Shown here one piece after another: positions 24,024-27,529 of a stretch of DNA of 41,920 bases; position 1 is the first letter of the stretch, and every line of letters starts with the position of its first letter. A program made the translations under genes and the position numbers. Under the pieces are notes generated by a model. The model was not told where the DNA came from. It worked only from the letters and a program-made list of their open reading frames with translations, and did no database searches. Origin of the DNA: Candidatus Mediterraneibacter excrementavium (GTDB lineage: Bacteria > Bacillota > Clostridia > Lachnospirales > Lachnospiraceae); the NCBI GenBank assembly GCA_019120275.1, contig DWVL01000080.1, positions 1 to 41,920 of the forward strand, written 5' to 3'.

Positions 24024-24052
24024 ATCATAGCAAATCAGGATAATTTAATCAA
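24024..24052 (-). promoter_or_regulatory. Promoter of the MFS gene
   Basis: The minus strand has -35 TTGATT (24047-24052), a 17-base spacer and -10 TATGAT (24024-24029). The -35 lies within the last codons of the YkvI-type gene. Confidence 0.6.
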
Positions 24053-25216
24053 TCCTCTTTCTTCATCCAGGCGTGACGGAACTTTTGCAGGTTTTGTATC
24101 AAATCTGGTAACGATCATATGCACGATATACGGGATCAGGATCACCGGGATTGCCAGATATGCGATCAGGCTGTATGCCTTCTGTATAAGGGTCAGGAGA
24201 CCGAACTGTGCGATGCCAAAATCTACGATGCAGCATATAAGCGCCGCAAGGATCTCTTTCTTTCCGATCTTCAGCTTCGTTGTCTTTGCTTCTGTTTTCT
24301 CACCGCAGATCCGCGTTACCATGGCTGCGACCATATTCACCGCGGTAGACACTGCGCCGAGGATGATAAGCAGGGAGATCAGGGGCGTCATAAAAGATGC
24401 GCCCACGCCTTTCCGGACCATCAGAAGTGTCGGCACGCTGGCATCCGCCATTCCCGGATCTGTATATACTGTCATCAGACCCAGCACGACCATCACCATC
24501 ATCAGCGCGTTCACGATCACTCCCGCGCCCATGCTCTTTGCGGCATCCGCCGGCTTCTCAAAAGATCGCGCATGCTGGACAAATACGGCAATGTTCGACA
24601 ACTGGAATGTTCCGTACAGGAATGCAGAATACAAAGCGCTGCCAACCGGAAGCTCCGCTGCCGTCATCTGTTCCGCCGCTTCTGTGATATTTCCCATTCC
24701 CGCGGCAATATTGGGGATATAAACGATCAACAGTCCGGCGATAATACAGACAGACAGGACCGAAGCAACTTTCCTCACCAGATCCGTCCCGAATATAGCT
24801 ACAACGAATATGAACACGCCGATCAGGAACGTACAGAGCAGATACGGCAATCCGGTCAGCGTACTCAGCGTGGCGCCTCCTGTGGCAAAGGCGACTGCCG
24901 GCGCCACGCACATCACACAGATATACAGCACTTCAAACAGGTTGGAAAATACCGGCGCAAATCTTCCGTAAAAAGCGTTGTTATAAGAACGGTAATCATA
25001 TACCTCGTGCTTTCTTGCAAAACGGAGACTGTATGCAAAAAATATTCCATTGTACAGCATTGCCAGGACCGGCATGATCAGACATGCAGCGCCATATCTT
25101 ACGAAATAACTGTAGATCTGGGCTCCGGAGGCAAACCCGCCGCCAAAATGCGTTGTGAACCATACAAAAGACACCCCCAGAATGATCGCTGTATTCCTAT
25201 TCTTCTTCATCCGCAT
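24035..25216 (-). CDS. YkvI-family membrane protein, probable amino-acid transporter
   Basis: This 393-residue integral membrane protein has about ten helices and is typical of the YkvI family (COG3949), which shares the LeuT fold of amino-acid and Na+ symporters. The start WFTTHFGGGFASGAQIYSYF holds the broken first helix with its GGGFASG substrate and ion site. The function of the family is not established to my knowledge. The ATG at 25214-25216 overlaps the end of the alcohol dehydrogenase gene by 20 bases, so the two form one T-box-controlled unit. If the T-box answers to tryptophan, this is a candidate tryptophan (or precursor) importer. Confidence 0.82.
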   Translation of the reverse strand: MRMKKNRNTAIILGVSFVWFTTHFGGGFASGAQIYSYFVRYGAACLIMPVLAMLYNGIFFAYSLRFARKHEVYDYRSYNNAFYGRFAPVFSNLFEVLYICVMCVAPAVAFATGGATLSTLTGLPYLLCTFLIGVFIFVVAIFGTDLVRKVASVLSVCIIAGLLIVYIPNIAAGMGNITEAAEQMTAAELPVGSALYSAFLYGTFQLSNIAVFVQHARSFEKPADAAKSMGAGVIVNALMMVMVVLGLMTVYTDPGMADASVPTLLMVRKGVGASFMTPLISLLIILGAVSTAVNMVAAMVTRICGEKTEAKTTKLKIGKKEILAALICCIVDFGIAQFGLLTLIQKAYSLIAYLAIPVILIPYIVHMIVTRFDTKPAKVPSRLDEERGLIKLS

Positions 25217-26309
25217 CTCTTCTCACCCTTTCTTTCAGTCTGTCCATGGCGTCAGCCAGCATCTCTTCTGTTACTCTGTATGGATAATGCGCTACATCCG
25301 ACATATCCGGAATGCGCTTCATACATTCTTCCCACTGTTCATCCGTGATCTCAATCTGTTCCAGCGAAACCGGAAGACCCAGCGCCCGGTTCAGCCGGTA
25401 GATCTGTTCAAATTCTTCATCCTGCCCGTCAACCAGAAGCGCCAGCAGGACGCCGAATCCCACCACTTCTCCGTGAAGGTGCCGCTCCTCAATGACCGGA
25501 TACGCCGTCATTGCATAGAAGACCGCATGCGCCAGTCCGCTGTTATAGTCCGGCGTATAATCTTTCGTAAGGAAAATGGATGCGATCCCTGTGGTCACGA
25601 CGATGGCCAGAACGACCTGCTCCACATCATAGGTGCAGAGACCTTTTCGGTGGTCGTCCAGTGCTTTCGGCCCGTATTCCAGCAGCGGATCCCGGCACAT
25701 CCGGCTCACCAGAACGCCAAGAGCCGTAAAATGTTCCAGCCGTTCCTCTCTTGATGAGATCATGGCTTCATAGTACTTCGCATATGTATCGCCTATTCCG
25801 GCCCACATATACCGGACCGGCGCTTTGGCGATGATCTCTGTATCAATAAAGGCATGCATCACCGGTCTGATGAAAAAATGCGGTTTCAGAAATGTTCCGT
25901 CTTCATTGTACATGATGGAAACAGACGTGCAGGCTGAGCAGTTGGATGCGATCGTCGGAAAAGCAAAGACCGGCTTGTCATCCGTAATGCACAGGCATTT
26001 TACTGTATCAAGCGCCTTTCCGCCACCCACGCCGAACACCATATCCGCCTCCTGATAGAGCGGCATGCCGCGAAGTTTTTCCACCGTGGCATAGGTACAG
26101 TTTTCGCCGTAGTACTCTTTCCCGATAATTTCAAGATCCGTCTGCTCCACATAGAACCGGATCTTATCATAAGCGGCGTCAAGCGCCTTTTTCCCGCCGA
26201 TCACGAGAACCTTCTTTCCGTACGATCCGCACACCGGTCCGATCTTGTCGTAAATGTGATCTCCGATCGAATAGTTAGGAAGATGTACTTCATAATTTTC
26301 AAGTTTCAT
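25197..26309 (-). CDS. Iron-containing alcohol dehydrogenase / glycerol dehydrogenase-like protein
   Basis: This 370-residue protein belongs to the iron-containing alcohol dehydrogenase / dehydroquinate synthase-like superfamily, nearest the glycerol dehydrogenase branch. The nucleotide-binding motif GVGGGKALDT is at 93-102. Likely metal ligands are Asp174 (GIGDTYAKYYEA), His261 (GLAHAVFYAM) and a His in HLHGEVVGFG (277 or 279). The start chosen at 26307-26309 has AAGGAG 8 bases upstream; an in-frame extension to 26369 runs into the terminator of the leader. It is the first gene after the T-box and overlaps the YkvI-type gene. The superfamily also contains dehydroquinate synthases, so an aromatic-pathway substrate is possible. 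Confidence 0.85.
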   Translation of the reverse strand: MKLENYEVHLPNYSIGDHIYDKIGPVCGSYGKKVLVIGGKKALDAAYDKIRFYVEQTDLEIIGKEYYGENCTYATVEKLRGMPLYQEADMVFGVGGGKALDTVKCLCITDDKPVFAFPTIASNCSACTSVSIMYNEDGTFLKPHFFIRPVMHAFIDTEIIAKAPVRYMWAGIGDTYAKYYEAMISSREERLEHFTALGVLVSRMCRDPLLEYGPKALDDHRKGLCTYDVEQVVLAIVVTTGIASIFLTKDYTPDYNSGLAHAVFYAMTAYPVIEERHLHGEVVGFGVLLALLVDGQDEEFEQIYRLNRALGLPVSLEQIEITDEQWEECMKRIPDMSDVAHYPYRVTEEMLADAMDRLKERVRRDADEEE

Positions 26310-26341
26310 AGCTGTTTCTCCTTTCCATTCCGGGATCCGGA

Positions 26342-26626
26342 CAAAATAAAAAGCCCTCGTCCCATACAATAATCCTGCAGGGACAAGAGCTGTAGATCAA
26401 ATTAACTCCTGCGGTGCCACCCGGCTTGATGCGGTGATCCGCATCCACTCATGCATACTGACATATGCTTTCTTTGGTAACGGAGTATGTTCTCCGGCTC
26501 GCCTACTTCACATTTCAACTCGCCCTCAGAAGCCCATTCACCCCAAGTCCGTCATACCGCAATCCCACCGCCTGCGGCTCTCTGTGAAGCGTCCAGTGAA
26601 GCTACTTGCTCTTCCTCAATGGTTTT
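26342..26626 (-). promoter_or_regulatory. T-box leader, specifier UGG (tryptophan)
   Basis: On the minus strand the leader has a Stem I with the AGTA loop strand (26603-26606), the CAGAGAGCC distal element, and GAA followed by TGG at 26534-26536. That TGG is the usual specifier place. The T-box core GGGTGGCACCGC is at 26411-26422, followed by a terminator. The base after UGG in the T-box bulge is C, which pairs with a G discriminator, as in bacterial tRNA-Trp; most T-boxes have U. Both observations agree on tryptophan. Uncharged tRNA would stabilise the antiterminator and allow transcription of the dehydrogenase and transporter genes. Identification of a T-box is firm; the specifier is read by eye. 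Confidence 0.88.
26352..26391 (-). terminator. T-box regulated terminator
   Basis: On the minus strand AGCTCTTGTCCC (26380-26391) pairs with GGGACGAGGGCT (26352-26363) over 12 bp with two or three G-U pairs, followed by TTTTATTTTG. It lies 43 bases before the dehydrogenase start, and its 5' arm is the part an antiterminator would capture. Confidence 0.88.
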
Positions 26627-26631
26627 GGTAC

Positions 26632-26660
26632 ACTTTATCACGTTATTACTGGAATGTCAA
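26632..26660 (-). promoter_or_regulatory. Promoter of the T-box operon
   Basis: The minus strand has a perfect -35 TTGACA (26655-26660), a 17-base spacer and -10 TAAAGT (26632-26637) with an upstream TG. It places the transcript start near 26625. Confidence 0.72.
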
Positions 26661-26818: not shown

Positions 26819-27529
26819 ATGAATAAAAAAGAACTCGATATGAACGATTATCATCAGACAGATCCGGAATTTGCAGAACGTTTTGAACACTTTGCTTTTG
26901 ATGAAGTGGTGAATGAAGAAGGACAGCAGCTCGACGATATCACCCGCCACATGGCTGTCACAGCCACGCTTCTCGGCTGCCAGGGACTCGATGAATTCCG
27001 CACGGAAGTCCCCCGCGCGCTGGATGACGGTGTGACGCCGGTGATGATTAAGGAGATTATCTATCAGGCTGTGGATTATCTTGGGATCGGCCGCGTGCGC
27101 CCTTTCCTCGATGCAGTCAATGATATCCTGAAGCGCCGCGGCATCGCGCTTCCGCTGGAAGGCCAGGCCACGACCACCATGGAAGACCGCCTGGAAAAAG
27201 GTGCGCAGGCACAGGCCGATATCTTCGGAGAACATATGAAAGAAGCATGGAAATCCGGGCATATCAACCGGTGGCTTGCGGACAACTGCTTCGGGGACTA
27301 CTACACCCGCACCGGACTTGACCTGAAGCAGCGCGAGATGATCACCTTCTGCTTCCTGTCCGCTCAGGGCGGATGCGAACCACAGCTCATCGCCCACGCG
27401 AAAGGAAATATGAACCTGGGAAATGATAAAGATTTTCTTACCAGAGTCGTCTCCCAGTGCCTGCCTTATATCGGGTACCCCAGAAGCCTGAATGCCATAA
27501 CATGCATTAATAAAGCAGCAGAAGAATAG
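26819..27529 (+). CDS. Carboxymuconolactone decarboxylase (CMD/AhpD-like) family protein, two domains
   Basis: This 236-residue protein has two CMD-like helical domains in tandem: about 20-115 (DDITRHMAVTATLLGCQG, GVTPVMIKEIIYQAVDYLG) and about 125-232 (LDLKQREMITFCFLSAQGG, HAKGNMNLG). The AhpD-type CXXC redox pair is absent from both, so a peroxidase-reductase role is not supported. GCEPQLIAHAKGN in the second domain is the better-kept active-site segment. The family in gut Clostridia includes enzymes of unknown substrate. An AAAGGAG site precedes the ATG. The gene is single, divergent from the T-box operon. Confidence 0.85.
   Translation: MNKKELDMNDYHQTDPEFAERFEHFAFDEVVNEEGQQLDDITRHMAVTATLLGCQGLDEFRTEVPRALDDGVTPVMIKEIIYQAVDYLGIGRVRPFLDAVNDILKRRGIALPLEGQATTTMEDRLEKGAQAQADIFGEHMKEAWKSGHINRWLADNCFGDYYTRTGLDLKQREMITFCFLSAQGGCEPQLIAHAKGNMNLGNDKDFLTRVVSQCLPYIGYPRSLNAITCINKAAEE

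Follow-up and report, generated by a model that had tools for sequence, protein, structure and literature searches.

What would a bacterium short of tryptophan (Trp) gain from an iron-type dehydrogenase and a membrane protein of the YkvI type? The question is posed by contig DWVL01000080.1 of Candidatus Mediterraneibacter excrementavium (Lachnospiraceae; GenBank assembly GCA_019120275.1), whose positions 1 to 41,920 form the whole stretch of DNA analysed here, designated the window. On its reverse strand, a T-box leader that reads the transfer RNA for tryptophan (tRNA-Trp) precedes genes for a protein of the iron-containing alcohol dehydrogenase (Fe-ADH) family and for a YkvI-like protein, and a T-box likewise accompanies the dehydrogenase gene in most of the related loci compared. 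The presence of a T-box over this operon, first proposed from the sequence of the window alone, is confirmed and extended. The answer we favour, tentatively and at a little under even confidence, is that a transcriptional tRNA-Trp T-box governs an importer together with a 2-hydroxyacid dehydrogenase that would oxidise indolelactate, from which tryptophan would be rebuilt.

The leader (26376..26628, minus strand), spanning Stem I through the antiterminator's 3' arm, matches Rfam covariance model RF00230 over its full length (model positions 1-219 of 219) at 86.6 bits, with an E-value of 2.4e-19. Because the curated cut-off is 93 bits, slightly more than this score, a default Rfam scan of the window reported no T-box. 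A genome-wide T-box search found twelve examples, six of them above the cut-off, and recovered the window leader again at E 1.8e-19. The GGGUGGCACCGC core lies at the T-box bulge and antiterminator, and the antiterminator shares an arm with the terminator: the 5' arm of an intrinsic terminator hairpin (26352..26391, minus strand; -25 kcal/mol, z-score -6.04) doubles as the antiterminator's 3' arm. None of 200 shuffled sequences was as stable as this hairpin, which is absent from the list produced by a simple terminator scan. Upstream of the leader is a promoter-like site, TTGACA-17-TAAAGT (26632..26660, minus strand), with 10 of 12 consensus matches; resembling boxes are seen in many of 30 aligned leaders, and promoter-like sites as a class showed no enrichment in the scan (7 observed, 5.5 expected). 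The leader is an ordinary member of the known T-box class.

Folded as a single sequence, the antiterminator stretch gave a z-score of -0.41, with 55 of 200 shuffles equally good, and a partial Stem I (26539-26625, lacking its 3' end) gave 0.59, with 140 of 200 equally good. Comparative folding, here of 30 leaders, tests the structure better. In the RNAalifold consensus, 32 of 48 predicted pairs include at least one sequence that is changed on both sides with pairing kept. Both Stem I helices that flank the specifier loop were recovered (columns 93-97/178-182 and 107-111/165-169), with such two-sided changes in nine of their ten pairs, and the pairs of the terminator hairpin are conserved with two-sided changes as well.

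The specifier UGG (26534..26536, minus strand) follows GAA in the Stem I specifier loop, and the Rfam alignment sets GAA-UGG-G between the two flanking helices, in agreement with the original prediction. The T-box bulge, UGGC (26416..26419, minus strand, from the Rfam alignment and the sequence), is the partner of the tRNA 3' end GCCA. It had been proposed to suit the G discriminator of tRNA-Trp, and the printed sequence of this genome's own tRNA-Trp, with anticodon CCA, does carry G73 after the acceptor stem. The specifier is UGG in every one of the 67 aligned rows, from 65 distinct leaders, in which both sites are present; the bulge is UGGC in 56 of them and UGGU in 11, the latter, taken alone, also fitting discriminator A. 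The tetranucleotide AUGG is invariant across the 30 aligned leaders. These rows come from 75 nhmmer matches after eight were dropped, namely a T-box remnant (locus L091), four reverse-strand matches and three matches to other T-boxes of this genome; one of those dropped, L010, by eye the leader of a methionyl-tRNA synthetase gene, has TAG in the specifier column. The nhmmer profile was built on leaders chosen by their antiterminator motif and is therefore biased toward such leaders, not toward any specifier. Alternative specifiers AUG (Met) and GGG (Gly) were not adopted: neither falls in register when aligned to the Rfam model, and each would need a bulge base able to pair with A or U, where the leaders have C (56 of 67) or U (11 of 67). 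A second UGG T-box in the same genome (C49:20011-20267), alike over most of its length, stands upstream of a TrpB-like gene. Tryptophan specificity, as originally proposed, is strongly supported by the UGG rows, the genome's own tRNA-Trp and this second T-box, and we regard the reading as near certain.

To what is this tryptophan T-box attached elsewhere? We took the best 80 of 356 relatives from a scan of genome contigs and recorded which genes lie up to 4.5 kb from the dehydrogenase; the closest named ones among them are Candidatus Mediterraneibacter guildfordensis and quadrami, at 98% protein identity. A T-box is present in 62 of the 80 loci. It is followed by the dehydrogenase and then YkvI in 47, by YkvI and then the dehydrogenase in six, by TrpX, TrpY and the dehydrogenase in four, and by the dehydrogenase with neither YkvI nor TrpXY in five. 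Without a T-box, YkvI precedes the dehydrogenase in ten loci and follows it in four; in one further locus with YkvI and no T-box the dehydrogenase is in two pieces. The contig start cuts the leader in the remaining three, two with YkvI and one with neither importer. The dehydrogenase of Faecalicatena contorta ET51 (L153:5941-6938) reads as two overlapping pieces. Overall, YkvI accompanies the dehydrogenase in 70 loci, the TrpXY pair in four and neither in six, and the tryptophan T-box is shared by 53 of these 70 orthologous dehydrogenase-YkvI pairs. What stays constant across the operons is the dehydrogenase. In a separate draw of 295 genomes from the same order, 65 encode a relative of the dehydrogenase at E 1e-30, and only seven, this genome included, encode one with at least 48% identity; Rfam found a T-box in two (L044 and L049) of 15 loci from this draw (L044-L058).

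Since YkvI stands beside the dehydrogenase at some loci and TrpXY at others, two unrelated types of importer swap at this position. The gene for the YkvI-like protein (24035..25216, minus strand; 393 amino acids) shares 20 bases with the dehydrogenase gene and lies outside the interval 25197-26660 covered by the original prediction. Its product matches no Pfam or NCBIfam model at E 0.001, and plasmid relatives with 23-27% identity carry no informative name; YkvI and COG3949 are names that we assume for it and that no search confirmed. Its AlphaFold model (predicted local distance difference test score, pLDDT, 84.8) has the fold shared by the amino acid-polyamine-organocation (APC) superfamily and LeuT. 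Foldseek placed YcsG in its top row, followed by BasC, AdiC, ApcT and LAT1. The best chains of these four have E-values of 5.9e-6 to 9.0e-6 and template modelling (TM) scores of 0.59-0.66. The 50 matches listed include a LAT1 structure with tryptophan and LAX3, an auxin carrier. The model supports a transporter and, more weakly, an amino-acid transporter. In other dehydrogenase operons a TrpXYZ-like transporter takes the place of YkvI. Streptococcus suis trpXYZ likewise has a tryptophan T-box, with specifier UGG, over a tryptophan importer, as described in the available part of PMC9382623, and a TrpXYZ-like importer adjoins this dehydrogenase in related loci, whereas in the window one APC-fold protein fills the importer's place. 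The main text of that paper does not use the word "dehydrogenase". A role of YkvI in tryptophan-related import, where the original prediction suggested a tryptophan importer, gains indirect support: from the exchange with a TrpXYZ-like importer, and from a model that matches amino-acid transporters among carriers of the LeuT fold.

The same exchange of YkvI and a TrpXYZ-like importer beside one dehydrogenase also favours a simpler account, which we think possible but rather unlikely, in which YkvI imports tryptophan and the dehydrogenase performs a side task, in redox balance or on some other metabolite, of use to a cell that lacks tryptophan. Against this, the enzyme seems to be more than a passenger because in five of the 80 loci the T-box leads to the dehydrogenase with neither YkvI nor TrpXY nearby. 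From these loci, together with those in which TrpXY stands in place of YkvI, it follows that the dehydrogenase belongs to the tryptophan response by itself.

The dehydrogenase (25197..26309, minus strand; 370 amino acids) belongs to the Fe-ADH/GldA-fold family, with 63.7 bits to Pfam PF00465 (cut-off 31.3) and a predicted structure of pLDDT 93.2. Its residues D174, H261 and H279, which we take to be the metal ligands, align with those of GldA and HcxA, so that the Asp-His-His site is kept. The Asp of the GldA motif TDAP is, by residue comparison, a Cys. All 87 loci read from the window's clade (the Trp clade, which counts the window too) have this Cys, as do 21 of the 23 more distant ones; the remaining two have no match to the search motif. 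Asn occupies the same position in chain 6csj, which its title presents as a double mutant of a polyol dehydrogenase that has acquired D-lactate dehydrogenase activity; we assume this chain to be the D121N, F245S mutant of Bacillus coagulans glycerol dehydrogenase. A mutated B. coagulans glycerol dehydrogenase uses pyruvate and NADH and acts as a D-lactate dehydrogenase, according to the available part of PMC4222570. Compared with GldA (5zxl) and 6csj, the window protein shares the fold (TM 0.87 and 0.84, respectively) and keeps the metal ligands, while identity is 25-26% and the TDAP Asp has given way to Cys in the window protein and to Asn in 6csj.

Escherichia coli HcxA, named hydroxycarboxylate dehydrogenase A in RefSeq, also has Cys at the TDAP Asp, and in RefSeq its gene adjoins that of methionine transaminase. 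In the accessible part of PMC3228920, ybdH (hcxA) and the methionine aminotransferase gene are under common MetJ control, and ybdH is labelled a putative alcohol dehydrogenase of unknown function. In being controlled through an amino acid, ybdH under MetJ parallels the Fe-ADH gene of the window. The hcxA (ybdH)-mtnE (ybdL) pair resembles the operon in the window in three ways: its Fe-ADH has Cys where GldA has Asp, an amino-acid pool controls it, and its context is one of salvage; it differs in that methionine, the MetJ repressor and an adjacent aminotransferase gene stand where tryptophan, a T-box and a transporter gene stand here, and HcxA is far from the window dehydrogenase in sequence. 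The tree gives no support for HcxA as a direct sister of the window protein, and we retain it as a functional parallel. Among the 23 more distant relatives, 12 have neighbours of families ilvE (five), etfA (five) or ilvD (two), each family checked on one or two examples, and such contexts suit 2-oxo- or 2-hydroxyacids. The difference in the active site points to a 2-hydroxyacid or 2-oxoacid substrate.

A glycerol dehydrogenase, or another polyol or aldehyde dehydrogenase, recruited under a tryptophan T-box would explain why the best NCBIfam model is that for GldA (202.5 bits, its cut-off of 336 not reached) and why the best fold matches among those listed are GldA structures, at 24-27% identity. 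We consider this reading improbable, given that the TDAP Asp is replaced throughout the Trp clade, whereas GldA-like sequences from the same order retain TDAP in eight of nine cases (no motif was found in the ninth) and form with E. coli GldA a clade apart from that of the window. Fe-ADH proteins and dehydroquinate synthase form one superfamily, and control by an aromatic amino acid adds some appeal to the idea, part of the original prediction, that kinship to dehydroquinate synthase places the enzyme in aromatic metabolism, at a shikimate- or dehydroquinate-like step. The searches gave that idea no support: no dehydroquinate synthase family was matched in Pfam or NCBIfam at E 0.001, none is among the 50 fold matches listed, and the 17 chains from a PDB sequence search are all glycerol, glycerol-1-phosphate or iron-containing alcohol dehydrogenases. 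The compared leaders, too, have UGG only, with no Tyr or Phe codon. We reject the link to dehydroquinate synthase and regard a role in aromatic biosynthesis as very improbable, the active-site change favouring a 2-hydroxy- or 2-oxoacid instead.

How, then, would the operon work if the dehydrogenase oxidises indolelactate? By the established T-box mechanism, applied here from the anatomy of the leader, uncharged tRNA-Trp would pair through its anticodon with the specifier UGG and through its GCCA end with the bulge UGGC. This pairing would stabilise the antiterminator, and the operon would be transcribed when charged tRNA-Trp is scarce. A 2-hydroxyacid dehydrogenase under a T-box that reads tryptophan only would have indolelactate/indolepyruvate as its natural substrate; substrate, reaction direction and transport are what we infer from sequence comparison. 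The enzyme, linked to nicotinamide adenine dinucleotide (NAD(H)), would oxidise indolelactate, which is tryptophan's hydroxy acid, and the indolepyruvate so formed would be converted to tryptophan by an aminotransferase of the cell; the YkvI-like protein would import tryptophan, indolelactate or both. The reverse direction, with indolepyruvate reduced to indolelactate and the product exported by the transporter, has in its favour that such dehydrogenases are generally reversible and that a gut Lactobacillus produces indolelactate (available part of PMC10949743), but is very doubtful in view of induction by uncharged tRNA-Trp, which would drain the precursor of tryptophan during starvation.

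Several observations weigh against indolelactate oxidation under tryptophan control. No full T-box was recognised in 15 of the 80 loci, beyond the three that are cut, and in the 295-genome draw the loci with the dehydrogenase beside TrpXYZ (L045-L048) have no T-box at E 0.01. No aminotransferase gene was seen by eye beside Trp-clade dehydrogenases where neighbours were listed. The structural match of the transporter is at the level of fold only (best TM 0.67, 11-17% identity), and the listed matches include carriers of metal (Nramp), cytosine (CodB), choline (CHT1), betaine (BetP) and potassium (KimA). The one TrpX-like protein scored (L163:6738-7778) reaches 258.2 bits with NF041285, and its ligand may differ because this is below the TrpX cut-off of 390. 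The window dehydrogenase scores higher with the GldA model than with the HcxA equivalog PRK10586 (154.5 bits, cut-off 429), both far below cut-off, and the tree sets HcxA outside the window clade on a very long branch (2.43); the shared Cys may therefore be convergent. Among the distant relatives, no ilvE, etfA, ilvD, etfB or acyl-CoA dehydrogenase neighbours were found in 11 of 23 loci, some of them on short stretches. Lastly, TrpA is encoded in 37 of 50 carrier genomes, hand-picked from the 80 loci for spread, which means that genomes other than auxotrophs carry the operon too; auxotrophy was dropped as its general reason.

The loci without a recognised T-box show some features of their own. 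At E 0.01, Rfam found none in L131-L137, L139, L144, L146, L106, L119 and the cut locus L147, nor in L050-L058 of the 295-genome draw; L091, L122, L153, L081 and L092 were left out of this check. A T-box remnant at L091:5821-5910 keeps the terminator region, has GTGAT instead of GTGGC at the bulge, and has no recognised Stem I. A tryptophan-rich leader peptide was considered for 14 loci without a full T-box and found unconvincing by eye, with no adjacent Trp codons; short frames with at least two Trp codons occur in a few (L133, L135, L137, L139 and L091). A short hairpin, seen by eye, directly precedes the first gene in L119, L133, L136, L137 and L146, with a T-run after it in L119 and L146, and such hairpins are possibly another attenuator. 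Genes for tRNA-Trp lie upstream of the YkvI-dehydrogenase operons lacking a T-box in L133 (4092-4163 and 470-541) and L137 (238-309); in L133, the nearer one is about 300 bases before YkvI.

In the genome of the window, which is 86% complete, TrpA was not found and the sole TrpC match is below cut-off. The two nearest relatives (L074 and L075) also lack TrpA. The TrpB-like protein (L160:9545-10927, minus strand; 460 amino acids) scores above the cut-offs of PRK12391 and TIGR01415; with its gene under a tryptophan T-box of its own and TrpA not found, indole salvage is possible. In Dehalococcoides, too, a trpB-like gene is preceded by a T-box, according to the available part of PMC2494555. Another T-box of this genome, L006 (C77:1447-1709), above the family cut-off, precedes by eye a CstA-type transporter-like gene.

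Around the operon itself, the gene downstream of YkvI encodes a major facilitator superfamily transporter (PF07690; 22794..23969, minus strand). Such a gene follows YkvI only in L074 and L075 among L074-L153, and it is perhaps co-transcribed with the operon in this lineage. Divergent from the T-box operon and adjoining it is a gene of the carboxymuconolactone decarboxylase family (26819-27529, plus strand), with a TAGACA-17-TATAAT site before it. At L184:6516-10859 (minus strand), and also in L185-L187, a distant relative of the dehydrogenase adjoins etfA, etfB and acyl-CoA dehydrogenase genes. The best NCBIfam models for the etfA and acyl-CoA dehydrogenase products of L184 are acryloyl-CoA reductase subunits, below cut-off, and loci of this type perhaps encode a pathway for the reduction of lactate or another 2-hydroxyacid.

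With the tryptophan class of RF00230, the leader shares the architecture from Stem I to terminator, the specifier UGG, a UGGN bulge matching G73 and the transcription-terminator design; it differs in its targets, here a dehydrogenase and a YkvI-type transporter. One T-box survey (PMC2494555) has neither "dehydrogenase" nor "ykvI" in its main text, and no report pairing a tryptophan T-box with this dehydrogenase was found in the available parts of the literature searched, a set outside which the main T-box surveys fall. Through the T-box, the physiology of two little-characterised families, the Fe-ADH and the YkvI-type proteins, becomes accessible. The indolelactate reading, if true, would account for one dehydrogenase travelling with two unrelated importers. 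It would also predict cross-feeding: a microbial indole that acts on the host as well would serve Lachnospiraceae and their neighbours as a source of tryptophan. With somewhat less confidence than in the mechanism itself, we suggest that gut Clostridia short of tryptophan may use the tryptophan T-box, importer and Fe-ADH to salvage indolelactate made by their neighbours, and in doing so may remove an indole that signals to the host.

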